Source of the DNA: Candidatus Blackburnbacteria bacterium RIFCSPHIGHO2_01_FULL_43_15b
GTDB taxonomy: Bacteria; Patescibacteriota; Microgenomatia; UBA8517; UBA10165
Reading direction: 5' to 3'
NCBI GenBank assembly: GCA_001816385.1
Contig: MHBW01000011.1
Span: 1-42,880, forward strand
DNA length: 42,880 bases
Shown here in pieces: positions 23,132-41,850 of this stretch (position 1 is the stretch's first letter; each line of letters starts with the position of its first letter). A program made the translations under genes and the position numbers. The notes under the pieces are model-generated. The model made no database searches. It saw only the letters and a list, made by a program, of their open reading frames with translations, and was not told the origin of the DNA.

Positions 23132-24790
23132 ATGACAAAATACTTTCTCTACGCAAGAAAATCTACCGAGGACGAGGAACGCCAAGTGATGAGCATTGAA
23201 GCCCAGCTCGCGGAGTTGGCGGAATTTGCCAAGCGGGAAAACATTGAAATTGCCGAAACTTTTATTGAAAGCAAAAGCGCAAAGAAGCCGGGGCGAGAAG
23301 TGTTTAACGAGATGATGAGCAAGGTGCAAGAGAGTAAAGCTCCAGTTGGACTTCTCGCGTGGCATCCGGATCGCCTCGCCCGCAATAGCGTTGATGGCGG
23401 TTTGATAATCTACTCCATAGACACCACTAAAATCGCTTCTTTGCGCTTCCCCACATTTTGGTTTGAGCCAACTCCGCAAGGGCTTTTTATGCTTCAAGTC
23501 GCCTTTGGCCAATCAAAATATTATTCCGACAATTTGTCGGAAAACGTAAAGCGCGGGATTCGCCAAAAACTCAGGCGCGGAGAGTGGCCCGGCCTTGCGC
23601 CGTTCGGGTATGTGAATAATCCCAAAACAAGAACGATTGAGCCAGACGCAACAAAAGTACGAGTGATAAAGAAAGCATTTGAGGAATACGCGCAAGGCCG
23701 TCATACACTTTTATCTTTAGGCGAACGCCTGAGTTTTTGGGGCGTGGTGAGCGGGACCGGAAAACCGCTTTGCAAGGCAACACTTCAAAGAATGCTTACA
23801 AACAAGGTATATCTCGGCTTAATCGTCCATAACGGCGAAACTTACGAGGGCGGTTTTCCGGCAATTGTTTCCAGAGCGACTTTTGAGAAAGTGCAAGAGG
23901 TGCTAAAGAACCGAGCCAAGCCGCGCCATTCTAAGAAACGGCACAACTTCCCATTCACCGGACTACTCACTTGTGGTGAGTGCGGCGCGGCCATTACCGC
24001 ACAATACGCGCATGGACACGGCGGCACTTACAAATACTACCGTTGCACCAAACGGCTTGGCTCGTGTTCGCAAAGTTATCTGCGCGAGGACCTGCTCACC
24101 GAACAGCTGAAAGAGGAAATCTCAAAAGTCGCTCTTTGCGAAGACTGGAAAGAAAAAATGTTGGCGCAAGTGGAAATGTGGGAAAAAGAAAATATCCAGT
24201 CTTCGCAATCTTTCGCCCAAAATCTGGAAAAGGAAATCAAAGAAACAGAAGGAAAGCTCGATAGATTGGTAAACGCCTTTTTGGACGGAAGCATTGAAAA
24301 AGAAACTTATCTCGCCAAAAAGGACGAACTTATCACCACCAAAACAGACCTCCAGCGAAGGAAGTCTGATTTTGGGCGAAAGGGAAACAATTGGATCGAA
24401 CCTTTGCGCGAATGGATTTTAACCGCTCACCACGCCGAAAAACTGGCTTTGTCCAACGAATTTGATGAAATCAAATCGTTGGTGGAAAAAATTGGAACGA
24501 ACCGCCGTTTGCTTTCCCAAAAAACTGAATTTGAATTCGTCCGACCGTACGATTTAATTCCGAAATACAGGGCTTTTTGCGAAGCGAGACCCGCCGAAGG
24601 CGGGGCGAGCGAGCAACAAAACGCCTCTGAATTTGAAAAATGTCTGAATTGGTCGGGGTGGGTGGAATTGAACCACCTACTTCTCGCACCCGAAGCGAGC
24701 GGTCTACCGATGACCTACACCCCGATAAAGCCATTTTACCACACAAAAGTGCTAGCTACTTTTGGTACTCAAAGAGTTCATGTTCTTTAA
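23132..24790 (+). CDS. Large serine recombinase (resolvase + recombinase + zinc-ribbon domains)
   Basis: YFLYARKSTEDEERQVMSIEAQL...NLSENVKRGIRQKLRRGEWPGLAPFGYVNN...GLLTCGECGAAITAQYAHGHGGTYKYYRC; the 3' end reads through the tRNA-Pro gene, so the true C-terminus is uncertain. Confidence 0.88.
   Translation: MTKYFLYARKSTEDEERQVMSIEAQLAELAEFAKRENIEIAETFIESKSAKKPGREVFNEMMSKVQESKAPVGLLAWHPDRLARNSVDGGLIIYSIDTTKIASLRFPTFWFEPTPQGLFMLQVAFGQSKYYSDNLSENVKRGIRQKLRRGEWPGLAPFGYVNNPKTRTIEPDATKVRVIKKAFEEYAQGRHTLLSLGERLSFWGVVSGTGKPLCKATLQRMLTNKVYLGLIVHNGETYEGGFPAIVSRATFEKVQEVLKNRAKPRHSKKRHNFPFTGLLTCGECGAAITAQYAHGHGGTYKYYRCTKRLGSCSQSYLREDLLTEQLKEEISKVALCEDWKEKMLAQVEMWEKENIQSSQSFAQNLEKEIKETEGKLDRLVNAFLDGSIEKETYLAKKDELITTKTDLQRRKSDFGRKGNNWIEPLREWILTAHHAEKLALSNEFDEIKSLVEKIGTNRRLLSQKTEFEFVRPYDLIPKYRAFCEARPAEGGASEQQNASEFEKCLNWSGWVELNHLLLAPEASGLPMTYTPIKPFYHTKVLATFGTQRVHVL
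24650..24724 (-). tRNA. tRNA-Pro (anticodon CGG) with encoded CCA
   Basis: CGGGGTG-TA-GGTC..GACC-GCTCGC TTCGGGT GCGAG..GGTGGTTCAATTCCACC-CACCCCG-A-CCA. Confidence 0.9.
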
Positions 24791-25315: not shown

Positions 25316-26761
25316 TCAACTTCTGAGCAGCTTGCGAAAACGCTCAGGATTGTCAAACGGTCCAACTATGGCCAAATTTAATCTATCTTCTTGGAAAAAA
25401 CTACCTGCCACGCGGTAAACATCTTCCGCAGTTACGTTGTCAATTCCACTTAAAACATCTTCAACCGTTCTCAACCTGCCTTCCAAAAGATAATGCTCGC
25501 CAAAAAAATCCGAGACGTTTTCCGTATCTTCAAGGCTTAACAAAAACCTACCTTTGGCGTATTCCTTGGCTTTTGAGAGCTCCTTCTCCGTCACCTTGTC
25601 ATTCTGAGCCGCAGGCGAAGAATCTCTGGCGGATGCCATATCCCTCGCATGTGCGAGAGATCCCTCACTAACGTTCAGGATGACATCCAAAATCACTTTT
25701 ATCGCTTCGTCAACTTTCCCCAATTCCACCCCCGCGCGGGCGGCCAAATACCCCGCGTCCGTATAATGTTGAACACTTGTGTGTATATAATATGCTAGAC
25801 CACGCTTTTCGCGGACTTGGCTAAAGAGACGGGACGACATCCCCCCGCCTAAAATCGCCGACAAAACCGTTTCTATATACCGGTCTTTATGTCCCAAGGG
25901 ATTACCGGAAAACCCCAAAACCAGGTGGGCCTGTTCTGTGAGCTTGGTGACCAGCCTTACGTCTGGGGCAACCCGACCATTGTCATTCTGCCTCACCACT
26001 CTGTCATCCTCGCGAATGCGGGGATCCAAAAACGACTTGTCGTCCCCATGCAAATGGGGATCCAAAAATACGTTTCTGGTATGGATTCCTGCCTGCGCAG
26101 GAATGACACCCTTCTCGTTCAGGGTGGCATGGTCTCCGAACCATTTTTCCGCCAACTCCTCAATCTTCCTCTGCTCAAACTTTCCCGCCACAGAAATAAC
26201 CATATTCTTTGGCTGGTAAAGCTTTTTTCTAAATTCCACAAAATCGTTTTTCGTCACTCTTTTGATATTGGCCGGTTTGCCCGCAATATCGTGCCCCAGG
26301 GAAGTTTTATCGCCATATAGAAGTTCTTCAAAACTTGTCGCAACTTTTTGTGGCGGCAAATCTTCATACATCGCAATTTCCTGAATAATTACCCCCTTTT
26401 CGCGTTCAATTTCCTGTGGTTCCAAAAGCGGCTCAAAGACCATATCAGACAATACATCAAATGCTAATTCTACATGTTTTTGTGTCACTTTTAAGTGGTA
26501 GGCTGTTCTTTCTTTGTCGGTTGAAGCGTTAATTTCGGCGCCTATAGAATCCGCTGCAGTTGAAACAGCCTGCGCCGAAGGATAGCGGCTGGTACCCTTA
26601 AAAACCATGTGCTCTAAAAAATGAGCCAAACCTGCCACACGGGTATTTTCATCACGGGAACCCGCCCGAACAAATACTTGAACCGTACAGGATTCCACCC
26701 CAGGAACAGAGGAAGTAATGAGAGTAATACCGTTTGATAATGTAGATTTATTCAATTTCAT
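25316..26761 (-). CDS. M16 family zinc peptidase with two in-frame repeat-derived insertions
   Basis: GLAHFLEHMVFKGT (HxxEH) ; insertions VIPAQAGIHTRNVFLDPHLHGDDKSFLDPRIREDDR and ILNVSEGSLAHARDMASARDSSPAAQNDK. Confidence 0.9.
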   Translation of the reverse strand: MKLNKSTLSNGITLITSSVPGVESCTVQVFVRAGSRDENTRVAGLAHFLEHMVFKGTSRYPSAQAVSTAADSIGAEINASTDKERTAYHLKVTQKHVELAFDVLSDMVFEPLLEPQEIEREKGVIIQEIAMYEDLPPQKVATSFEELLYGDKTSLGHDIAGKPANIKRVTKNDFVEFRKKLYQPKNMVISVAGKFEQRKIEELAEKWFGDHATLNEKGVIPAQAGIHTRNVFLDPHLHGDDKSFLDPRIREDDRVVRQNDNGRVAPDVRLVTKLTEQAHLVLGFSGNPLGHKDRYIETVLSAILGGGMSSRLFSQVREKRGLAYYIHTSVQHYTDAGYLAARAGVELGKVDEAIKVILDVILNVSEGSLAHARDMASARDSSPAAQNDKVTEKELSKAKEYAKGRFLLSLEDTENVSDFFGEHYLLEGRLRTVEDVLSGIDNVTAEDVYRVAGSFFQEDRLNLAIVGPFDNPERFRKLLRS

Positions 26762-29573: not shown

Positions 29574-30365
29574 ATGCGACGCGCTTGCCCATTGACAGGG
29601 TTCCACCTTGTCAATACCACCTTAGCATTTGCCACTCTGACCTTCCTGGTATTTGCCCACCCTGCCAAAATTTCCGCTCAATCTGTAGGTTATGCCTTTC
29701 CTGTTGACGACTCCAGTGCTGTAATTGGAGATATGCTAACTTTGCGGGACGGCAAACTTGTTCGCACTGACAAGCCTTACGACAACGAAATTTTCGGAGC
29801 GCTGCAAAACAAGCCCGCGCTTCTTTTCAAAGTCCAAGGGACAGTTAACGGCCGGCCTATTGTCAAAGACGGTATTGCTATGGTAAACGTAACCGCCGAT
29901 AACGGCCCCATTTCTTACGGCGATGTTATCACTTCCTCAAAAAACCCCGGCAAAGGACAAAAAGCAACCAAATCAGGGTACGTTTTGGGAGTCTCCATGG
30001 GCAACTTAAAAGAAGGCACAGGCCAAATATTGGTTTCAATTAAACCTGAATATGCCGAAATCACAACAGCAGTTGGCGCGGCAAGGCTTCTCAACTATGT
30101 TAACGAATCAATATTCCGCACCCAACGTAATCCGGAAAAGTTTTTAAAAGGCATCCAATACGTTGCCGCGGGGGCCGTTGCTCTAGCTGCTTTTGTTCTG
30201 GCATTTTTGACTTTTTCAAAAGCGGTGGTCAAAGGGATAGAATCTGTCGGACGAAACCCTATGGCTAAAGGAACAATTTATGTGTCCATTGTAATTAATT
30301 TGATAATGACTGCAACAACGGTTGGATTTGGCATTTTGGCAGCCGTCGTCATTATCAGTTTTTAA
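29574..30365 (+). CDS. Secreted-domain / F-type ATPase subunit c-like hairpin fusion protein
   Basis: Signal peptide (TTLAFATLTFLVFAHPAKISAQS), ~120-aa ectodomain, then two TM helices joined by KGIESVGRNPMAKGTI, which aligns with the c-subunit polar loop (EAIGRNPEAQxKI); first gene of an F1 cluster. Confidence 0.7.
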   Translation: MRRACPLTGFHLVNTTLAFATLTFLVFAHPAKISAQSVGYAFPVDDSSAVIGDMLTLRDGKLVRTDKPYDNEIFGALQNKPALLFKVQGTVNGRPIVKDGIAMVNVTADNGPISYGDVITSSKNPGKGQKATKSGYVLGVSMGNLKEGTGQILVSIKPEYAEITTAVGAARLLNYVNESIFRTQRNPEKFLKGIQYVAAGAVALAAFVLAFLTFSKAVVKGIESVGRNPMAKGTIYVSIVINLIMTATTVGFGILAAVVIISF

Positions 30366-30545
30366 CCTTGCTTTTGTCGCGCAAAGTAGTTACAAATGAA
30401 ATGTCACCCCGCTCAGCGGGATCCAAAAAATGTCATCCTCAACCTGATCGAGGATCTATATAAATAATCTTATATAGATTCCTGCCTACGCAGGAATGAC
30501 AAAAGGGTATGCGTTATTCCCACGAAGGTGGGAATCCAAAAATAC

Positions 30546-31073
30546 ATGGACTTAACTTTACTCTCATCATTTCTCCTCCTGGCCGTGGCTTTGTCTGTAG
30601 CTAATTCTATTCTTGTAGTTAAATTCATACTCGAGACGCGGCGCGCCAACTCTACCTCACAAGAAGCGCAAAAACTAAAATCTCAAAACAAAGTTTTGCA
30701 GCTTGTACAAGCCGAAAACCAGAAAATTATCGAGTCCGCAAACGAAAAGTACGCAAAATATTTATCAGACCTTGAAAAAGAGATTGACAAAAAGGTTGAA
30801 AAATTAATTGAAGAAACGTCAAAAGAGTTAAAAAGCTCCCTGGCTAAGTCTCAAAAAGACAGTTTCCAAATAAAACAGGAGGCTATGCAAAGTATTAACC
30901 AGGAATTAGCCCAATACAAAAAGGAAAAAATAGAAATGATTGACGAGAACATTGTTGGAATCATGGAAAAAACCCTCTCCTTAGTTTTAACGCGCCGCTT
31001 AACGCTTAAAGACCACGAGGATTTAGTGCGCGATGCCCTGGCCCAAGCCCGAGCGGAAAAGTTCCTCCCATGA
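30546..31073 (+). CDS. atpF: F-type ATPase subunit b-like
   Basis: Single N-terminal TM then a long charged coiled coil; located before delta and alpha. Confidence 0.75.
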   Translation: MDLTLLSSFLLLAVALSVANSILVVKFILETRRANSTSQEAQKLKSQNKVLQLVQAENQKIIESANEKYAKYLSDLEKEIDKKVEKLIEETSKELKSSLAKSQKDSFQIKQEAMQSINQELAQYKKEKIEMIDENIVGIMEKTLSLVLTRRLTLKDHEDLVRDALAQARAEKFLP

Positions 31074-31318
31074 AAGAGACTAAAAAACCACCCGTCTTAA
31101 CGCTTTTTCTTCCCTTTGAAGCCTCCCGGGAATTTGCGAAAGAAATTCGTGATAATCTGCAAAGGAAAACCCCCGGACTTATCCTGGATATAAAGCTTGA
31201 CCCCACCCTTTTAGGCGGCACAACCATTGTTTATAAAAACCAACTTCGCGATTATTCTCTCAAAGAGTCTCTTTCCCAAAACAGGATAAAACTTGCCCAA
31301 AAATTTAAACAGATGTGA
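31070..31318 (+). CDS. atpH: F-type ATPase delta-like, C-terminal domain only (82 aa)
   Basis: DIKLDPTLLGGTTIVYKNQLRDYSLKESLSQNRIKLA matches the delta C-terminal DpsliGGv.i..gd...D.Sv...L..l pattern. Confidence 0.75.
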   Translation: MKETKKPPVLTLFLPFEASREFAKEIRDNLQRKTPGLILDIKLDPTLLGGTTIVYKNQLRDYSLKESLSQNRIKLAQKFKQM

Positions 31319-31336: not shown

Positions 31337-32764
31337 ATGAATAAACAGTCACAAAAATCAAAAGAGGTTGGACTGGTAATGTCTGTTAGGGATTACATGG
31401 TTACTCTTAACGGCCTGCCTGAAATTTCTATAAACGAAATTATCAAAAACAAGTCCACAGGCGCACATGCCTGGATCAGCAAACTAGACGGAGAAGTGGT
31501 CGAAGCCTTCCTGTTTGATCAAAACACACCCGCCTACCCGGGAGACGTTTTTTTCAGGACAGGCGAACCGCTTTCCGTGCCCGCTTCAGAAGGCCTTTTG
31601 GGCCGTATTATCTCGCCTTTAGGTCTCCCGCTAGATGGCAAATCTGCGGCGCACTCGCCCACTTCCATGCTGCTTGAAAAAAGTCCTCCCAAGATAGATC
31701 AAAGACGCTTAATTACTGATCAGTTGGTTACAGGCTTTGCGGCAGTTGACAGTCTTTTGCCTCTGGGCAAAGGGCAAAGAGAGCTGGTCTTAGGCGATCC
31801 CAGAAGCGGTAAATCAGTCTTTTTGGCCGAGATTTTTGCCAACCAAAAAGATACCGGCGTTATTTGCATCTGGGCAGCCATAGGACAACCAATCGTCCAG
31901 ATAAAAGGCGTTGTTGAGAATTTAAAAAAACTTGGGGCGCTGAAAAATACAATAGTTGTAGCAACTTCTTCCTCAGAACCCGTGCCAGTTATTTTTTTGA
32001 CCCCCCATGCAGCTCTCTCAATTGCCGAGTATTTTCAAGAGCAAGGTCGTGATGTTTTGGTTGTATTAGACGACATGGGGACGCATGCCAAAACTTACAG
32101 GGCAATTTCACTTTTAGCCAGAAGAAAGCCAGGACGCGAAGCCTACCCGGGAGACACTTTCTGGCAGCATGCCCGTCTTTTGGAAAGGGCCGGCAATTTT
32201 ACAAAAGGCTCAATTACCGTCCTGCCGGTTATTGAGGTTGACTTGTCAGAATTTACAACTTTTATTCCCACCAACCTCATGGCCACAACGGACGGACATC
32301 TTCTTTTTCGCGCCGATCTTTCAAACCAGGGACAACGGCCGGCCATTGACATTGCGCGCTCTGTTACCCGTGTTGGCCGCCAAACCCAAACGCATCTGCA
32401 AAACTTGTTATCAGACCGCGTCAAATCAATTTTGGCTCGCTCCAAAGAACTTGCCACATTAAGTCATTTAGCCTCCACTCTCCCCCAGGAAACACAAACA
32501 GCCATTGCCCAATCACAAGCCATAGAAGAGATTTTGCGCCAGGAAGGAACCTGCCTCTCCGAAGAGGTGCAAACAATACTTTTTGGTTTGGTCTTTACAA
32601 ACTTGGGCAAAACAAAAGATGTGAAGTTTTGGGCGACACTTAAAAAAACGCTGCCTGAAAAGGTCAGGAAAGATAAGGCTTTGCAGAAGCTGGCAGGTGA
32701 TGTTTTAAAGTTTGAAACGCTTGAAGATTTAACAAAAGCATTAGAAAAATCAAAGATCAAATAA
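31337..32764 (+). CDS. atpA: F-type ATPase subunit alpha-like
   Basis: GDPRSGKS P-loop; ARRKPGREAYPGDTFWQHARLLERAG; TFIPTNLMATTDGHLLF; RPAIDIARSVTRVG. Confidence 0.9.
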   Translation: MNKQSQKSKEVGLVMSVRDYMVTLNGLPEISINEIIKNKSTGAHAWISKLDGEVVEAFLFDQNTPAYPGDVFFRTGEPLSVPASEGLLGRIISPLGLPLDGKSAAHSPTSMLLEKSPPKIDQRRLITDQLVTGFAAVDSLLPLGKGQRELVLGDPRSGKSVFLAEIFANQKDTGVICIWAAIGQPIVQIKGVVENLKKLGALKNTIVVATSSSEPVPVIFLTPHAALSIAEYFQEQGRDVLVVLDDMGTHAKTYRAISLLARRKPGREAYPGDTFWQHARLLERAGNFTKGSITVLPVIEVDLSEFTTFIPTNLMATTDGHLLFRADLSNQGQRPAIDIARSVTRVGRQTQTHLQNLLSDRVKSILARSKELATLSHLASTLPQETQTAIAQSQAIEEILRQEGTCLSEEVQTILFGLVFTNLGKTKDVKFWATLKKTLPEKVRKDKALQKLAGDVLKFETLEDLTKALEKSKIK

Positions 32765-32837
32765 TGTCATCCTCACCAGAATGGGAACTCAAGGGATGTC
32801 GTCCTCGTGAAGGCAGGGATCCAAAAACGACTTGTCG

Positions 32838-32965
32838 TCCCCATGCAAATGGGGATCCAAAAATATCTATGTAGTATAGATTCCCGCCTGCGCGGGAATG
32901 ACAGGTGGGGGCGCGGGAATGACAAGTGGGGGCGCGGGAATGACAAAGGTGGCAGGAATGGCAGA
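32838..32965 (+). repeat. Long direct repeat copy 1 (family A plus ggtgggggcgcgggaatgaca tandem units)
   Basis: Identical to 33946-34052 except for one extra 21-bp unit. Confidence 0.85.
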
Positions 32966-33027: not shown

Positions 33028-33912
33028 ATGTCTTCAATTCAATCTTTAACCGCTGATATTGAGTTTGCGCAAAATTTAGGGCACGTTGCCCAATCTTATT
33101 CGTCTTTGGCTGCTTCAAAATTGGCCAAAATCAGAACCAAAATTGAAGGCACCAGAACTTTCTTCAGCGAAGTTGCCGCCCTTTACCACGCAATTCGTGA
33201 AGTGGGTGCTAGAAAATATAAAATAGAGCCCGAAAAGAACAGCAAAACAGCTTCAGTTTTACTCACTTCCAACCAACGTTTTTATGGCTCAACCAACACC
33301 TCTGTCACCGAGCTTTTTTTATCCTCAACCACCCCTCGTGACGACTTGCTCGTCATTGGCCATGTGGGTAACGAGCTAATTGCCAAACCGCACAAATCTT
33401 TTGTTTTTCAAAAAGATATTCCCACAAGCCAAGAGCTGTCAACCCTTGCGGAATCGCTGGCAGGCTACGCCCGCATTTTGGTCTTCTACCCGCTGACTAA
33501 AAGTATTTTGGAAGTGGTGCCACAGGTCAAAGACGTTACCGAAAGTCTGGATGCTGAGCGCAGTCGAAGCATGGTTGATGTGACGGCAAGTATAGATTCC
33601 CACCCCGCTGAAAGCGAGGCTCGCCCTTGGCGGCTTCGCGGGAATGACGCGGCCAACCTTGACTTTCTCTTTGAACCGGAGATAAAAAAAATGATAGAAT
33701 TTTTTAAAGATCAGGCGACAACGCTTTTAGTTGGGCAGGCCTTTTTGGAGGCAGAACTGGCCAGAGAGGCAGCCCGTCTTGTTGCAATGGACACTTCCCA
33801 ACAAAGAGCTAAAGAATATGTGCAAACGCAAACTGCAGCTTTGCGAAACTTAAAAAATATTTATGCCAACAAACACCTTTTGGAAGGGTTTTTGGGGGTG
33901 GTGGAAGACTAA
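33028..33912 (+). CDS. atpG: F-type ATPase subunit gamma-like with in-frame repeat insertion
   Basis: Position between alpha and beta; N/C-terminal helical segments (EAARLVAMDTSQQRAKEYVQTQTAALRNLKNIYANKHLLEGFLGVV); insertion VTESLDAERSRSMVDVTASIDSHPAESEARPWRLRGNDAANLDF. Confidence 0.8.
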   Translation: MSSIQSLTADIEFAQNLGHVAQSYSSLAASKLAKIRTKIEGTRTFFSEVAALYHAIREVGARKYKIEPEKNSKTASVLLTSNQRFYGSTNTSVTELFLSSTTPRDDLLVIGHVGNELIAKPHKSFVFQKDIPTSQELSTLAESLAGYARILVFYPLTKSILEVVPQVKDVTESLDAERSRSMVDVTASIDSHPAESEARPWRLRGNDAANLDFLFEPEIKKMIEFFKDQATTLLVGQAFLEAELAREAARLVAMDTSQQRAKEYVQTQTAALRNLKNIYANKHLLEGFLGVVED

Positions 33913-33945
33913 TGGTGTCGCGTGTCGTCACAAGTAGCACTGTCA

Positions 33946-34052
33946 TCCCCATGCAAATGGGGATCCAAAAATATCTATGTAGTATAGATTCCCGCCTGCG
34001 CGGGAATGACAGGTGGGGGCGCGGGAATGACAAAGGTGGCAGGAATGGCAGA
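33946..34052 (+). repeat. Long direct repeat copy 2
   Basis: tccccatgcaaatggggatccaaaaatatctatgtagtatagattcccgcctgcgcgggaatgacaggtgggggcgcgggaatgacaaaggtggcaggaatggcaga. Confidence 0.85.
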
Positions 34053-34065
34053 AGAGGTTGACAAT

Positions 34066-35433
34066 ATGTCTCATTTTAAAGGAATTATCAAATCAGTCAC
34101 AGGGCAAACGGTGGTGGTTGTCATTACCTCCTCCACTCTCCCTCAAAGCGGAGAGATCGCGCATGTATCAAAGTCGCCAGAGATTAAACTGGAAGTTTTG
34201 GCAAGGATTGATACAGAAGTAACTTGTTTAATACTGTCTGAATCCAATACTCTCCTTGTGCGCGGCCAAAAAGTGGAAGGAACAGGCAAACCACTTTCTG
34301 TCCCCGTGGGTAAACAAGTTTTGGGTAAAATGCTCAATCTTTTTGGAGAAAGTTCCGAAGGAGAGGACAATTTTGATCTTCTTGCCCCGATTTACGCCCC
34401 AGCCCCATCATTCTCGCTTGCTGTTAACCCCACCGAGATATTAGAAACCGGTATAAAAGTGATTGATTTTGCCATGCCCATACCGCGGGGGGGAAAAGTT
34501 GGCGTTGTTGGCGGGGCGGGCATGGGCAAAACCGTTCTTTTGACAGAAATTATTTTAAACATTATAAACCGACAAGAAGCCTACACTGTTTTTGCCGGCA
34601 TCGGGGAACGCATAAGGGAAGCGCAAGAACTCTACCAGCGCTTAAAAGCCTTGAAAGTTTTGGATAAAAGCAGTCTGGTGATCGGGCAAATGCACGAAAA
34701 TGCGGCTAACCGCTTTAGGATAGCCCAAGCTGCTGCCACTATCGCCGAGCATTTCCGCGATAAAGGCAATGACGTGCTCTTCTTTGCTGACAACATGTTC
34801 CGTTTTGTCCAAGCAGGAAGCGAGGTTTCGCAAATTTTGGGGGAAATTCCCTCAGAACAATTTTACCAGGCATCTTTACAAAACCAGGTGGCAGAAATTG
34901 AAGACCGTCTAGTCTCAACTGAAGACGCCGCCATTACTTCTATCCAAACAGTTTACGTCCCGGCAGATGATTTTTCCGATCCTGCCGTGTCGGCGATTAT
35001 GACCTTTTTGGATACGGTTATTATTTTATCTCGCGGCAACGCACAGCTTGACCTCCATCCCCCCGTCGACCTTTTGCAGTCATCATCTTCTTTTCTTAAA
35101 AGACAAATTTTGGGGGAGCGCCATTTTGAAGTTTACACGCGCTTTAATGGGTTATTATCAAGCTATGTCAGACTTTCCCACATTGCGGCAATTGTCGGCG
35201 AAGAAGAATTGGGAGCTGCCGACAGGCTGACTTTTAAACGGACAAGGAAAGTTATTAATTATTTAACCCAGCCCTTTTTTGCCACAGAATCTCAAACTGG
35301 AAGGAAAGGAACGCATGTTAAAAGAGAAGATGCAGTTACCGACATTGAGGCGATACTCGCCGGAAAATTAGACAATGTGCCGGATGAGAAATTAAAATAC
35401 ATAGGGACGCTTAAAGAAGCGAAGCTGATTTAA
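34066..35433 (+). CDS. atpD: F-type ATPase subunit beta-like
   Basis: GGAGMGKT P-loop; GIGERIREAQELY; DNMFRFVQAGSEVSQILGEIPS; YVPADDFSDPA. Confidence 0.9.
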   Translation: MSHFKGIIKSVTGQTVVVVITSSTLPQSGEIAHVSKSPEIKLEVLARIDTEVTCLILSESNTLLVRGQKVEGTGKPLSVPVGKQVLGKMLNLFGESSEGEDNFDLLAPIYAPAPSFSLAVNPTEILETGIKVIDFAMPIPRGGKVGVVGGAGMGKTVLLTEIILNIINRQEAYTVFAGIGERIREAQELYQRLKALKVLDKSSLVIGQMHENAANRFRIAQAAATIAEHFRDKGNDVLFFADNMFRFVQAGSEVSQILGEIPSEQFYQASLQNQVAEIEDRLVSTEDAAITSIQTVYVPADDFSDPAVSAIMTFLDTVIILSRGNAQLDLHPPVDLLQSSSSFLKRQILGERHFEVYTRFNGLLSSYVRLSHIAAIVGEEELGAADRLTFKRTRKVINYLTQPFFATESQTGRKGTHVKREDAVTDIEAILAGKLDNVPDEKLKYIGTLKEAKLI

Positions 35434-35571
35434 TTTAAAATTTGAAATTTTGGGTGTCATCCCGCATATAGTGCGGGATCCAATCAATTAATATAGATTC
35501 CGTATCGAGTACGGGATGACAGATAGGTACGTGTCATCCCTGCGTAGGCAGGGATCCAAAAATATACATAC

Positions 35572-35748: not shown

Positions 35749-35797
35749 AATATTTATATAGATTCCTGCTTCCGCAGGAATAACAGAAATTGTTGTC

Positions 35798-36070
35798 ATG
35801 GTTTTTCATTTATTTATATCCTCTCCATTTCAAAAGCTCTACGAGGGGGATGTGGAATATGTTAGTTCCGAGAATTCTTCCGGTAAGTTTGATATTCTCC
35901 CCCACCATGCTAATTTTATTTCGATAATTGAAGATAAGGAAATAATTGCCAAAACAGCAAACGGGAAAGTGGAAACTTTTAAATTTCTCAAAGCGATAAT
36001 GCTTTTTCAGGATAACAGTTTAAAAATCTATACTGACCTCTCTCCCTCGTACTCTGAAAGCATACTGTAA
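35798..36070 (+). CDS. atpC: F-type ATPase epsilon-like, beta-sandwich domain only
   Basis: 90 aa; FHLFISSPFQKLYEGDVEYVSSENSSGKFDILPHHANFISII; no C-terminal helical hairpin. Confidence 0.8.
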   Translation: MVFHLFISSPFQKLYEGDVEYVSSENSSGKFDILPHHANFISIIEDKEIIAKTANGKVETFKFLKAIMLFQDNSLKIYTDLSPSYSESIL

Positions 36071-36134
36071 TTCCACGGTGTCATCTTCGTATAAATTTCT
36101 TCCCCAATTCTTCCCGTTTATTGCAAAAAGACTA

Positions 36135-36261: not shown

Positions 36262-39200
36262 ATGTCTGCCAAAATATTTGATCTTTTAACCAACCCAATT
36301 GCGCGCCGCCGCCTCCGCAGGGTTTTGCGTTCCCGCGTCCACAGTGTCGTCCTCGCGAAAGCGGGGATCCAAAAATACTTATGTAGTATAGATTCCCGCT
36401 TTCGCGGGAATGACAGGTGGGGGCGCGGGAATGACAGCCCCCTCCCCACACACCGCCTAATCTCCATTCATGACGCGGCAAAATATATTGGTGTCTCACC
36501 AGATACCTTGAGAAACTGGGGAAAAGCAGGAAAGCTTACCCCCTTGAGAACCCAAGGAGGGCAACGCCGCTACCGGCTGCGCGAGTTAAATCAACTGATC
36601 GCCATTAGACAGCCGGTTTTCTACCAACAGGTCAAAGACGGTGTCACCCTGAGCAATCAGAATCACAAATCGAGAATGCCTGCAATAGCACAAACGCCTA
36701 CTAACGTAGTAGCGAAATTCATTTCGCGTTTACCCCGTAGGGCCTGGCGCAGAATAAATTCTGCTATTACAACGAATGCAGGCAGGCCAATAACAACCCT
36801 TGGCGACAAGGCAGCCATTCTTCTCTCTTTAGGTATCGTTGGTGTTATAACCGTTTCAGTCTGGTCTGGGGTTTCTTTGGCAGCTAAACGACACAACAAA
36901 GGTGTCATCCCTGCGCAGGCAGGGATCCAAAAAGATTTTTGGATTCCTGGTCAAGCCAGGAATGACAGGTGGGGGCGCGGGAATGACAATGGAGGCGGGA
37001 ATGACAAGGGTGGTGGTGGGCAGGTTCTTTCTGCTGCTGACCGACTCGGAAGCGTGGGCGGTATCCTCTCCACAAGTGACGAGTCCGGCAACTTGCAACT
37101 TGAAATTACTGTTCCCACCAAAATTGAGGGTGGACTCCAAATCGGAGGAAAAGAAGTTTTGCCGGCCTCCGAAGTCGTCAGTTCTCTTCAGGGTAAGGTT
37201 GGAGCGCTAAAATTGGTTGCCGGAACAGATATATCAATAGATGGCTTAACTATAACAGACACTTCCAAACTGGATACAATCCGCGGGCGAGGAGGCTGTT
37301 CGGCCTGTATTACCAATGCAGACGTTGCTGATGACTTAACCCTTTCGGGAGGTACTATTAACAATACGGCGATCGGCGCCTCAACCGCCTCAACAGGAGC
37401 ATTTACCACCCTGGCTGTTTCCTCCACACTTGCCGTAACCGGCGCAACAACACTTTCTAGCACTCTTACCGTATCGGGTGCTAGCACTCTCTCCTCGACG
37501 CTGGCAGTAACAGGAGCAACAACACTAAACGGCAACGTAACCCTTGGGGACGCAACCTCTGACTCCCTAACCTTTACCGGTCGTGCTGCTTCAAACTTCA
37601 TCCCAACTACTACCGGAACGTATGATTTGGGCTCATCTGATTTGAAATGGAGCAGGCTTTATTTAACCGGTGTGGCCACAATCGGCGGACAATCAACATT
37701 CACCTCTGCGCCAACAGGGACTGGCGTTGGTGACGGAGTCATCTATATAAACCCTGCCTCATCTGACAGCTCCTATACTCTTTTTGGAATTGCTGTAAAT
37801 GGAACAGAGAAGTTGAGAATGGATGCCGATGGCAATATTACGGTTCAAGGAACCGTCATTGGAGCAAGCGGACAAGGAATTGGCTATTGGCAGCGCTCAT
37901 CGACAACTATTTCTCCGGCTACTGCCAATGACATTGTTTCCTATTCATCCAACAATACTACCAATGCTCTTGCTGTTACCGCAACAGGTGCCTCTACCAA
38001 TGCTATTAATTTTACTGCTGATTCTGTTACTACCGGCAATGGACTGTCCCTTTCGGTTGACGGGCTAACTACAGGAAATGGAATATCCCTCACTTCTACT
38101 TCCACAGCCGGAGGAGCATCTGGTGCCTCATACCTCCTCAATCTAGCTCGATCTGGCACAAACTCTAATGCTTCCCACACAGCTTATGGACTTTACTCTG
38201 CTGTCACAGACACCGGAACTACTTCTACCAATATAGCCGGCTACTTCTCGGCCTCCGGTGCCAGCACCAATTACGGATTATTGGTCAATGCAGGGAATGT
38301 CGGCATCGGGACTATCACGCCGTCATCAGTTTTAACAGTCTCCGGAACAATGACCCAATCAGGCGGGGCAACATCAATAAACGATAGCTCAAACTACAAC
38401 ACAACCATAAATACCGGAACATCTACAGGTGCTGTCAGCATCGGCAACTCCAGCGCCGGAGCTATTGCCCTCTCTACAAGCTCCACTTTTGGAGTCACTA
38501 CCACCACCTCAGCCCAAACATACACCAGCGCCAATGTCTCGGGGACTACCACCTCCTCCGGGTTTGTCTTTACTGATAATGCTACTCTCACTGGAACAGC
38601 AGCATATATTGGTTCAACAGGGGTGACTACAGGAACTTTGCTCAATGTTGACACCGGCTCGGCTAATACTTTGACTACAGGCAAACTCTTGAGCTTAACA
38701 TCAGCTGCTACTTCCCTCACATCAGGCTCGCTTCTTTCTTCAAGCTATACCGGAACTGTCGGATCAGGCTGGACAGGAGGATTAAATATTTTTGACTACT
38801 CGCCCTCTTCCGCCCCTTCGACTGCCCCGACAGGCGATATACTGAGGGTGACACTGGGAGCTAATGCCACAAACTTTGCCGGAAACCTTCTTAACCTTAC
38901 TGACAACTCAACCTCTATATTTTCTGTATCCAAAGCTGCTGTAACTGCATCAATACCATTCAATCAAACATCTTCCGGAGACGTTTCTCTAGCTTATGAC
39001 ATGACTTTTATCAACCCGACAGCTTCGTATATTACCTCAGCTGCCCCCCTATACCTCGTTGCCGGAGAAAGCTTTAATTCTTCAGACTTAACTTTGCGCA
39101 CATATAACCTGGGTGAAATTGTTTTAGATTCTGCTGTCACCACAGGCAATGGCGTCAACTTCAATAACGCAACTTTGACTACAGGAGTTGGAGTAAACAT

Positions 39201-41850
39201 TGCCTCCACCACCCTAACTACTGGTAAGCTGGTTAATATCGCGCCCACTTTTGCCGGGGCTGCTGTGACAGGTTATGGACAGTATATCAACGGGGCTGAT
39301 TCAACAACTTCAGCCAATACTGATTACAACCTCTATTCCACTTTGGCTTTGAGTGGGACTGCTGCCAAAATAGGTGTAGGTTTATACTCGACAGTTACAT
39401 CCAGCTCAACCACAGGAGATACACTGATTGCTGCTGATTTAGCTTCTTCTTCAACAGGAGTATTGGGAGCTACCACCAGAAGTAATTATGGACTAAGAAG
39501 TATTCCTGTTAACTCCGGCGCCAACAATAATGCCAGCTCTATCATTAATATGTACGGCGGGTATTTTAATCCCCAATCAACAGGACCAACAACCGGCACA
39601 ACCAGTGTTTATGGGCTGTATGCCAAAACCCTGGCTACCCATGCCTCTGATGCCGGGACTGTTAACCAATATGGGTTGTATGTTGCCAATGATGCAACAG
39701 CTTCAACAAACGGGACATCAACTAAATACGGGCTTTATATCGAAGCCCTCTCGGGAGCTGATTCAAACTACGGCGCATATTTTGGCAGTAATGTGGGAAT
39801 AAATACCACAACTCCCGGAGGAAGGCTGGATGTCGCCGGAACAACTGATGCTTTCGGCTTAAAACTTTCCCAGGCATCAACTGCCATAACAACAGCTGCC
39901 AATACCCTGCTTAATGTCTCTTCCGCGACAGCCGATACATCAAACCATCTCGTATTAATCGAAAATACATCAGCAACCTCAAACTATGGCAACGGCGGGG
40001 CGGACTCAGGAATTGTCAAGATAACCAGCTCCTCAACCGGGACCGTCGGCACAACTACTACCAACCCCAATGTGGCAGGGTTGTTTGTCTCAACAGCTGA
40101 TGGGGACACAATTTCAACTCTGGTGAGAAACGCGGCAACAACCATTACTATGGCAGATGTGGGAACTGTCGGCGCCCAGGCTGACCCTGGAGTTTTGACT
40201 GTCGAAGGGGCAGATACAACAAATGTCACACTTTATAATTTGATAGCTGCCTACAATTCAACCACACGGTCAGACGCAGCATCGGTTTTTAGGGTTAGGG
40301 CAGACGGCAATGTTTACGGTGAAGCAGCCTTCAACTCCACCGGAGCAGATTATGCCGAATACTTTCCAACCAAGGACACAACTATTGGAACAGGAGAGAT
40401 AGTAAGTATAAGTCAACCTGTCATCCCGAGCCCTTCGACTTCGCTCAGGACAGGCTCCGCCGAGGGATCCAATGTCATCCCCGATCCAGTCGGGGATCCA
40501 AAAATAGATTCCGGCTCGGGGGCCGGAATGACAGGGGCGGATGACAAAGGAACCATCTCCCGCTCTTCCACCCCTTATGACAAAAAGATCCTTGGTGTCA
40601 TCTCCGACAACCCCTCGGTTGTTGGAAACGCTGCCGGCGGTAAGCACGAAAACGACCCGCATTACAAATTAGTAGGTTTACTTGGCCAGGTTAACGTCAA
40701 AGTTTCCGCTGAAAACGGCCCGATAGAAAAAGGAGATTATCTCACTTCTTCGTCCACCCCCGGAGTGGCCATGAAGGCCACCAGACCGGGACAGGTGATA
40801 GGTAAAGCACTTGAAGGGTTTGATTCCTCTTCCTGTGTCATTCCCGCGGAGGTGGAAGGTGAGGTTGGAATGACGGGGTTATGCCAGGGCAAAATCCTCA
40901 CCTTTGTCAACCCTACCTTTGCCGATCCTGGAGACGTCCTGGCCACCCTCATGCTAGACTCTACAGGCAATGTAGTAGCGGACTTCAGTCCGCGCCTACC
41001 TGAAAATCGCGGAATGAATTCCGCTAATACGAACGTAGGCGCCGATGGCGCGACTACGAACTCTGTCATTCCCGCGCTTCCTGTTGTCATTCCCGCGGAG
41101 GCGGGAATCTATACAGATACTAATGGATCCCCGACTGGATCGTGGATGACAACTCTCCAGCTTCTTTCCTCCCGCCTGGATGAGTTGGAAAAAAAGACCT
41201 CCGTCATTGCGAGCGACAGCGGGGCAATCTCTGCTTCTGCCAGTACTAGCGAAATTAATTTCGCGCCTTCCCTTGATGCGCAGACTGAAAGTCTGCTAAT
41301 ACAAAAGGGTCTTACTGTCCTTGGTGCAAGCAATTTCAACGAAGTAGGCGTTACCGGTAACTTAACTGTGGGGTTGCTACAGATCAGCTCCACCTTGGAG
41401 GGTGAGCGCGCAATAAATTGCGCTACTACGAAAGTAGGCGCCGATGGCGCTACTACGGATTGCAGTAGCGGACTTCAGTCCGCGCCTGCATCCACCTCCC
41501 TCCGTGTCCTTGGTACCCTTAAATTCCAGGACGCCTTTGGCGACGGGGTCTCCATCGATCAATATGGTAATGTCAAAATCGCAGGAACTGTCACCGCCAA
41601 AAAATATAATGTTGGCACAACTGATGCCAACTCCACCTCTTTAGGTTCCGGCGTCATCCCTGCCGGCGCCACATCCGTAACCATCAGCACAACTGCTGTC
41701 ACATCGTCTTCGGCAATATTTGTAACGCCGGAAACCAAGACCTCTCGGACATTAGCTGTCACCGAGAAAATTTCTGGAAAATCCTTTAAAGTAGAAATTA
41801 CAGAAACTAGAACCACAGACCTAAAGTTTAAGTGGTTTATCGTGAACTGA
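36262..41850 (+). CDS. Giant MerR-HTH / transmembrane / fibre-like surface protein
   Basis: HTH RLISIHDAAKYIGVSPDTLRNWGKAGKLTPLRTQGGQRRYRLRELNQLI; TM AAILLSLGIVGVITVSVWSGVSLAA; long Thr/Ser/Gly repeats (TGATTLSSTLTVSGASTLSSTLAVTGATTL; YGLY.. units); DYAEYFPTKD and ILGVISDNPSVVGN...NGPIEKGDYLTSSSTPGVAMKA block. Confidence 0.85.
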   Translation: MSAKIFDLLTNPIARRRLRRVLRSRVHSVVLAKAGIQKYLCSIDSRFRGNDRWGRGNDSPLPTHRLISIHDAAKYIGVSPDTLRNWGKAGKLTPLRTQGGQRRYRLRELNQLIAIRQPVFYQQVKDGVTLSNQNHKSRMPAIAQTPTNVVAKFISRLPRRAWRRINSAITTNAGRPITTLGDKAAILLSLGIVGVITVSVWSGVSLAAKRHNKGVIPAQAGIQKDFWIPGQARNDRWGRGNDNGGGNDKGGGGQVLSAADRLGSVGGILSTSDESGNLQLEITVPTKIEGGLQIGGKEVLPASEVVSSLQGKVGALKLVAGTDISIDGLTITDTSKLDTIRGRGGCSACITNADVADDLTLSGGTINNTAIGASTASTGAFTTLAVSSTLAVTGATTLSSTLTVSGASTLSSTLAVTGATTLNGNVTLGDATSDSLTFTGRAASNFIPTTTGTYDLGSSDLKWSRLYLTGVATIGGQSTFTSAPTGTGVGDGVIYINPASSDSSYTLFGIAVNGTEKLRMDADGNITVQGTVIGASGQGIGYWQRSSTTISPATANDIVSYSSNNTTNALAVTATGASTNAINFTADSVTTGNGLSLSVDGLTTGNGISLTSTSTAGGASGASYLLNLARSGTNSNASHTAYGLYSAVTDTGTTSTNIAGYFSASGASTNYGLLVNAGNVGIGTITPSSVLTVSGTMTQSGGATSINDSSNYNTTINTGTSTGAVSIGNSSAGAIALSTSSTFGVTTTTSAQTYTSANVSGTTTSSGFVFTDNATLTGTAAYIGSTGVTTGTLLNVDTGSANTLTTGKLLSLTSAATSLTSGSLLSSSYTGTVGSGWTGGLNIFDYSPSSAPSTAPTGDILRVTLGANATNFAGNLLNLTDNSTSIFSVSKAAVTASIPFNQTSSGDVSLAYDMTFINPTASYITSAAPLYLVAGESFNSSDLTLRTYNLGEIVLDSAVTTGNGVNFNNATLTTGVGVNIASTTLTTGKLVNIAPTFAGAAVTGYGQYINGADSTTSANTDYNLYSTLALSGTAAKIGVGLYSTVTSSSTTGDTLIAADLASSSTGVLGATTRSNYGLRSIPVNSGANNNASSIINMYGGYFNPQSTGPTTGTTSVYGLYAKTLATHASDAGTVNQYGLYVANDATASTNGTSTKYGLYIEALSGADSNYGAYFGSNVGINTTTPGGRLDVAGTTDAFGLKLSQASTAITTAANTLLNVSSATADTSNHLVLIENTSATSNYGNGGADSGIVKITSSSTGTVGTTTTNPNVAGLFVSTADGDTISTLVRNAATTITMADVGTVGAQADPGVLTVEGADTTNVTLYNLIAAYNSTTRSDAASVFRVRADGNVYGEAAFNSTGADYAEYFPTKDTTIGTGEIVSISQPVIPSPSTSLRTGSAEGSNVIPDPVGDPKIDSGSGAGMTGADDKGTISRSSTPYDKKILGVISDNPSVVGNAAGGKHENDPHYKLVGLLGQVNVKVSAENGPIEKGDYLTSSSTPGVAMKATRPGQVIGKALEGFDSSSCVIPAEVEGEVGMTGLCQGKILTFVNPTFADPGDVLATLMLDSTGNVVADFSPRLPENRGMNSANTNVGADGATTNSVIPALPVVIPAEAGIYTDTNGSPTGSWMTTLQLLSSRLDELEKKTSVIASDSGAISASASTSEINFAPSLDAQTESLLIQKGLTVLGASNFNEVGVTGNLTVGLLQISSTLEGERAINCATTKVGADGATTDCSSGLQSAPASTSLRVLGTLKFQDAFGDGVSIDQYGNVKIAGTVTAKKYNVGTTDANSTSLGSGVIPAGATSVTISTTAVTSSSAIFVTPETKTSRTLAVTEKISGKSFKVEITETRTTDLKFKWFIVN
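40419..40533 (+). repeat. Repeat-derived in-frame insertion in the giant protein
   Basis: gtcatcccgagcccttcgacttcgctcagg...ccggaatgaca, translated VIPSPSTSLRTGSAEGSNVIPDPVGDPKIDSGSGAGMT. Confidence 0.8.
40976..41122 (+). repeat. Cluster of family B and A repeats translated in frame
   Basis: GCGGACTTCAGTCCGC, GCGGAATGAATTCCGC, GGCGCCGATGGCGC, followed by gtcattcccgcggaggcggg. Confidence 0.75.

Follow-up and report, generated by a model that had tools for sequence, protein, structure and literature searches.

An F1-type gene cluster of Candidatus Blackburnbacteria opens with a protein in which a subunit c hairpin, devoid of the usual ion-binding carboxylate, is fused to a secreted ectodomain, and it contains no recognised subunit a. 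This anatomy, its conservation and the absence of the usual ion path are directly established. We somewhat favour the view that such clusters encode a second, dedicated F1-type rotary ATPase of Candidate Phyla Radiation (CPR) bacteria, the c-derived rotor of which works a crown of ectodomains mechanically, likely on surface fibres. It is plausible, if a little doubtful, that they form a phylum-wide CPR class of F1-driven, ion-independent rotary machines, with a c-derived ring and exchangeable extracellular domains working fibres.

The fusion protein and its c-type hairpin

The window (the whole stretch of 42,880 nt that was analysed) contains the following features:

29574..30365, + strand: c-like fusion protein, ORF of 263 aa (basis: sequence, profile and AlphaFold/Foldseek), with signal peptide aa 1-35, ectodomain ~36-165, juxtamembrane helix 169-184 and subunit-c-type hairpin 187-262
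30249..30260, + strand: GRNP codons, aa 226-229 of the cytoplasmic loop, which corresponds to the loop of canonical c that docks on gamma/epsilon
30312..30314, + strand: Ala247 codon, canonical Glu/Asp site (R+20, see below)
30546..31073, + strand: b-like subunit of the peripheral stalk, a coiled coil after a single N-terminal TM (weak ATP-synt_B match, E 0.65)
31070..31318, + strand: delta (OSCP), C-terminal part only, 82 aa (PF00213, profile 114-167 of 172)
31337..32764, + strand: alpha, Walker A and Arg finger present, short N-terminus
33028..33912, + strand: gamma, rotor shaft
34006..35433, + strand: beta, catalytic residues intact
35798..36073, + strand: epsilon, beta-sandwich domain only, 90 aa
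36262..41850, + strand: giant single-pass fibre-like protein, 1862 aa, putative linked partner

The sequence-only reading had described the product of the first of these genes as a signal peptide, an ectodomain and a C-terminal helical hairpin, and had placed the gene at the head of an F1 cluster. The ORF and the AlphaFold model (a monomer prediction with pLDDT 89 and helices at 169-184, 187-227 and 229-262) agree with that layout, and gene order in the window and in relatives bears out the position. Ala35 is the likely cleavage residue of the signal peptide and is nearly invariant across orthologues. The ectodomain is beta-rich.

The hairpin has two helices and a cytoplasmic R-x-P loop, as in subunit c (PF00137), and the proposed alignment of its loop with that of the canonical protein holds for the GRNP motif, in profiles and in structure. 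Against 17 canonical c proteins of relatives, profile–profile comparison gives a probability of 96.7 (E 3.3e-10). When the sequence profile of the hairpin is compared with the PDB, only ATP synthase c subunits fall below E 0.5 (best 1.1e-4). In Foldseek, the hairpin of the AlphaFold model superposes on c subunits, mostly with rmsd 1.3-2.1 Å and with TM up to 0.87. The window protein by itself has no Pfam match; a distant orthologue (L208) exceeds the PF00137 cut-off. Judged from these profiles and models, the hairpin is a real subunit c homologue.

At the position 20 residues past the loop arginine (R+20), Glu is present in 20/20 canonical c proteins of the same genomes. In the window fusion, the loop of which reads ESVGRNPMA (with R227 as the loop Arg), R+20 is Ala247, the replacement that had been read from the sequence. 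Between 186 and 263, acidic residues are limited to E188 and E223, both outside the membrane cores. The further claim that neither helix core offers a substitute carboxylate extends to the orthologues: none of the 81 that were aligned has Asp or Glu in the core of TM1 or TM2 (R+20 is I, V, A, L, F, T or G), and in the divergent fusion set neither acid occurs at R+20. The helix cores of a few orthologues hold His or Lys/Arg, mostly near the ends. The loop, EA[L/I/V]GRNPLA, is near-invariant in the aligned orthologues (Glu(-4), GRNP, [L/M] and A(+4) in 81/81), while the membrane helices drift. In TM2, Asn occurs at R+15 in 73/81 and Thr at R+19 in 52/81. The GxGxG packing motif by which canonical c is recognised in TM1 has largely gone from the fusions, the Ig-type fusions excepted. 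Outcomes set in advance as contrary to the assignment (Asp or Glu in TM2, no c-like structure, a hairpin unrelated to atp genes) were sought, and none appeared.

Cluster composition, distribution and surface genes

Fusion clusters keep the conserved order c-b-delta-alpha-gamma-beta-epsilon, and in none of them was a subunit a recognised. Among the neighbours of the clusters, no conserved multi-TM protein or extra membrane subunit replacing a was recognised; the recurrent neighbours identified are leuS, iPGM, Fic and other housekeeping or accessory genes. The alpha3beta3gamma set of F1Fo ATP synthases is present with its catalytic residues, and conservation across the F1-like clusters is 100% for the P-loop Lys-Thr and the catalytic Glu-Arg of beta and for the Arg finger of alpha. 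The peripheral stalk of F1Fo (b and delta) stands in the gene order, with delta partial and b weak by Pfam in the window. The start codon given for the b-like gene is a probable one (the listed ORF opens at GTG 30528, within a repeat), and the true start of beta may fall 3′ of a repeat ending at ~34052. Epsilon has a median length of 91 aa in F1-like clusters versus 140 aa in canonical operons; that of the window matches the beta-sandwich domain only and is too short for the inhibitory domain. In known bacterial enzymes, the helical domain of epsilon restrains ATP hydrolysis, so that its absence fits an ATPase.

A hidden canonical a or c elsewhere in the source genome (904,670 bases, 96.8% complete) was looked for without result: PF00119 and PF00137 find no match in this ~97% complete assembly, and the second canonical atpE/atpB for which a search had been proposed is absent from it. 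The only other ATP-synt_ab match, a 421-aa frame at C25, is possibly Rho.

The relatives compared were 142 Microgenomates-type CPR genomes (Daviesbacteria, Woesebacteria, Levybacteria, Roizmanbacteria, Amesbacteria, Gottesmanbacteria and others). The full-length fusion is found in 58/142 and canonical a with c in 60/142 (both systems in 27 genomes, fusion only in 31, canonical only in 33, neither in 51), and the two distributions are independent, with no association. Canonical operons, in the order a-c-b-delta-alpha-gamma-beta-epsilon, sit at separate places in the same genomes. The 27 genomes with a fusion beside a separate canonical operon thus point to a parallel machine and not to a decayed synthase. 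In a tree of alpha and beta, 92 F1-like loci split from 20 canonical CPR loci with support 1.0; the canonical sequences come from CPR only and the root was imposed, so that the tree gives the split and not its direction.

Structure comparison places the fold of the window-type ectodomain with phage capsid decoration and head-fibre proteins (phi29 gp8.5, DUF2190, preneck appendage barrel); unlike in those proteins, the fold here belongs to a cellular membrane rotor protein. Across the phylum, the domain joined to the carboxylate-less hairpin is of the phage-decoration, the invasin-like Ig or the NHL-propeller type. Ig/invasin-like fusions of 664-820 aa are L208-L211 and L213, NHL-propeller fusions are L219 and L212, and fusions to another decoration-like domain, as judged by sequence pattern, include L216-L226 and others. 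Large ectodomains occur (a 507-aa propeller, a 2589-aa protein, strings of Ig domains). The Ig-type fusions preserve the canonical glycine pattern of TM1 better than the others and form the branch closest to canonical F1; they appear to be an intermediate.

The fibre-like protein next to the window cluster consists of a BldC/MerR-like HTH, one TM (~aa 180), repeats, a Peptidase_G2-type domain and a conserved C-terminal domain. Its Peptidase_G2-type domain is homologous to the ectodomain of the fusion (E 3.9e-12). A fibre-like gene directly adjoins 60/92 clusters versus 7/191 background blocks of seven genes, and about a third of clusters have no immediate fibre neighbour. The same criterion was applied to clusters and blocks (composition STGN at least 0.33 and KRE below 0.13, loosened from at least 0.36 and below 0.12 after near misses, along with a change in the definition of a neighbour). 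By group, fibres adjoin 41/62 Microgenomates-type clusters (Fisher P 2e-24 against 7/191) and 8/13 and 11/17 other clusters (1e-7 and 5e-10), values that are optimistic because loci and blocks are not independent. Exactly one TM lies near the N-terminus in 67/73 N-complete fibre genes, a MerR/BldC-like motif is found in 24/73, and many C-complete ones finish in a similar strand (FDYFIVE, FKWFIVN). Genomic adjacency, the basis for pairing the two proteins, suggests that fusion and fibre are partners. As a separate observation, the cytoplasmic N-terminal end of a giant surface fibre anchored in the membrane is a BldC/MerR-like DNA-binding HTH, at 36262-41850 of the window and among the fibre genes of L076-L152.

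Proposed mechanism, alternatives and precedents

In our best reading of these genes, the F1 motor would hydrolyse ATP and the c-derived rotor would turn or anchor a crown of ectodomains that works with surface fibres, probably for attachment. We infer the ring, its rotation and the function of the machine. Several copies of the fusion would form a c-type ring that docks through the conserved EAxGRNPLA loop onto gamma and epsilon. ATP hydrolysis by F1 would turn this ring against the b/delta stalk, and the work would pass mechanically to the outside crown; with neither subunit a nor carboxylate, it would not go into an ion gradient. The neighbouring surface fibre, which contains the ectodomain-homologous domain, is the likely substrate, and the likely role is host or surface attachment, by moving, twisting, loading or releasing fibres. 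The sequence-only reading had put forward, conditionally, a ring that displays ectodomains and is coupled to F1 without the usual proton transport. All of the checks proposed with that reading and run here favour it, and the proposal is strengthened because a canonical operon coexists, ectodomains swap, epsilon is short and a fibre gene is linked. Against a full ring, large ectodomains on every protomer would crowd unless linkers splay them; the source genome has no hairpin-only partner gene. This crowding and the membrane footing of b without subunit a are the main weaknesses of the mechanism. Further points against it are the largely missing packing motif in TM1, the weak Pfam match of b, the c fusions that stand away from F1 genes, and a tie to fibres by adjacency that about a third of clusters do not show.

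A turning crown has to be weighed against a static anchor or scaffold, in which the hairpins only tether F1 or display adhesins and ATP is used for conformational switching or regulation. Ectodomains of adhesin and decoration types are in keeping with such a role, the very large ones suit few copies better than a full ring, and the peripheral stalk is reduced in the clade of the window (delta of 82 aa, short alpha N-terminus). However, gamma, b, delta and epsilon are all kept, with a complete catalytic set and the invariant loop, and an anchor would need no stator and shaft in such strict gene order; we regard it as rather unlikely. We think it improbable that the ring is a channel or platform for export or assembly of the neighbouring fibre, with F1 acting like FliI/ArlI-type ATPases. 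The genomic link to fibre genes is strong and the decoration-type ectodomain resembles domains within fibres, but the fibres have an ordinary single N-proximal TM, insertable by Sec, c rings are lipid-plugged in known structures, and a b/delta stalk with a gamma shaft favours torque over unfolding.

It is very improbable that the cluster is an ion pump or synthase with an unconventional site (the TM2 Asn at R+15 or Thr at R+19) and an unrecognised replacement of subunit a. These residues are frequent, as given above, and a canonical synthase alongside does not exclude a second specificity, yet Asn is not reversibly protonatable and is missing at R+15 from most of the divergent fusions. Nor was a conserved multi-TM neighbour recognised in the clusters or a PF00119 match found in the source genome, and to our knowledge the rotors of known rotary ATPases use a carboxylate. 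To the view that the cluster is what remains of an ordinary ATP synthase decaying in cells with reduced genomes we give almost no credence. The clusters are indeed found in reduced genomes, many of them without canonical a and c, but loop and catalytic residues are conserved, the F1-like clan is distinct from the canonical one, and both systems are present in 27 genomes; the relaxed constraint or frequent pseudogenes that decay would need were not seen. The clusters are conserved and are found along with canonical operons, and on these grounds we reject a decayed canonical synthase.

The favoured F1-driven rotor can be compared with several known machines. Archaellum and flagellar motors perform energy-driven turning of a structure outside the cell, but their parts (ArlI/ArlJ or MotAB/FliG) are unrelated to those of the present machine, for which rotation is predicted. 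Bacterial F1Fo ATP synthase shares with the cluster the gene order of the alpha, beta, gamma, delta, epsilon and b homologues, a c-type hairpin with the EAxGRNP loop and intact catalytic residues. Unlike F1Fo, the present system has no subunit a, no TM2 carboxylate, a secreted ectodomain fused to c, a short epsilon and a separate clan in the alpha and beta tree.

The closest precedent, itself without a c homologue, is the F1-like X0 ATPase of mycoplasmas (Type 2/3, e.g., the gliding motor of M. mobile; PMC3369863, PMC12994834, PMC8406192, PMC11864180), a working precedent for F1 on surface systems (PMC12994834; gliding, PMC11864180). Its alpha-like subunit is without the N-terminal helix (PMC12994834), a point of likeness to the present system, where alpha of the window has a short N-terminus. 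Its X0 proteins (12-TM Protein 1, cytosolic Protein 2, Protein 5) have no recognised similarity to c, b or delta (PMC3369863). Both systems combine F1-like alpha, beta, gamma and epsilon with the lack of an Fo ion path in genome-reduced bacteria. The mycoplasma ATPase is coupled to a surface system, and the genes here suggest a similar link. In contrast to mycoplasmas, the present system retains homologues of c, b and delta, with ectodomains fused to c, the phylum is a different one, and the window cluster contains no gene for a 12-TM or other extra subunit.

In the open-access literature searched, we found no description of c-ectodomain fusions in CPR. The available passages of an ATP synthase survey give canonical loss in 30% of CPR and make no mention of the fusion system (PMC10656485). 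The parts belong to a known kind; what the open-access literature searched does not show is their combination: a carboxylate-less c-derived rotor, the lack of a, exchangeable ectodomains and phylum-wide occurrence. If the proposal is true, this is an ATP-powered surface rotor built from ATP synthase parts and, if rotation is shown, a new class of machine. Some CPR "ATP synthase" annotations probably denote a different machine, unable to make ATP in the usual way, which affects inference of energy metabolism for a very large bacterial radiation. With its clear c-type rotor, the system would also make it possible to test the idea, put forward for mycoplasmas, that F1 can drive surface mechanics.

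Variation among clusters and dispersed repeats

The orthologues stand in atp-like clusters, as the sequence-only reading would have it, with rare exceptions: the c fusions L212 (G147 C8) and L217 (G443 C5) have no F1 genes next to them, and their neighbours are very large proteins of surface type. Besides L217 on C5, G443 has a full cluster on C1 (L216). Two complete c fusions per genome, each near its own divergent gamma gene, are present in G111 (C13, C17) and G078 (C32, C30). In the window, L075 and L095, only the C-terminal part of delta remains (81-92 aa), and other clusters have a delta of ~160 aa. In Woesebacteria-type clusters (L105, L107, L109, L114, L120, L137, L140, L150, L154), a gene of one family is found near c or between it and b; the L105 copy was identified as phosphoglycerate mutase (iPGM).

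Upstream of the window cluster, at 23132-24790, the sequence suggests a serine-recombinase-like gene of 552 aa. Dispersed palindromic repeats of ~100 nt lie between cluster genes and within coding frames, at the following positions:

26001-26118, 30403-30545, 32796-32965, 33940-34052, 35531-35565: palindromic repeats
35752-35792, 36344-36456, 36902-37008, 40478-40506, 41054-41118: palindromic repeats (continued)

In the M16-like peptidase, argS-like and fibre frames, the repeats translate as ...PAQAGIQ...GND.
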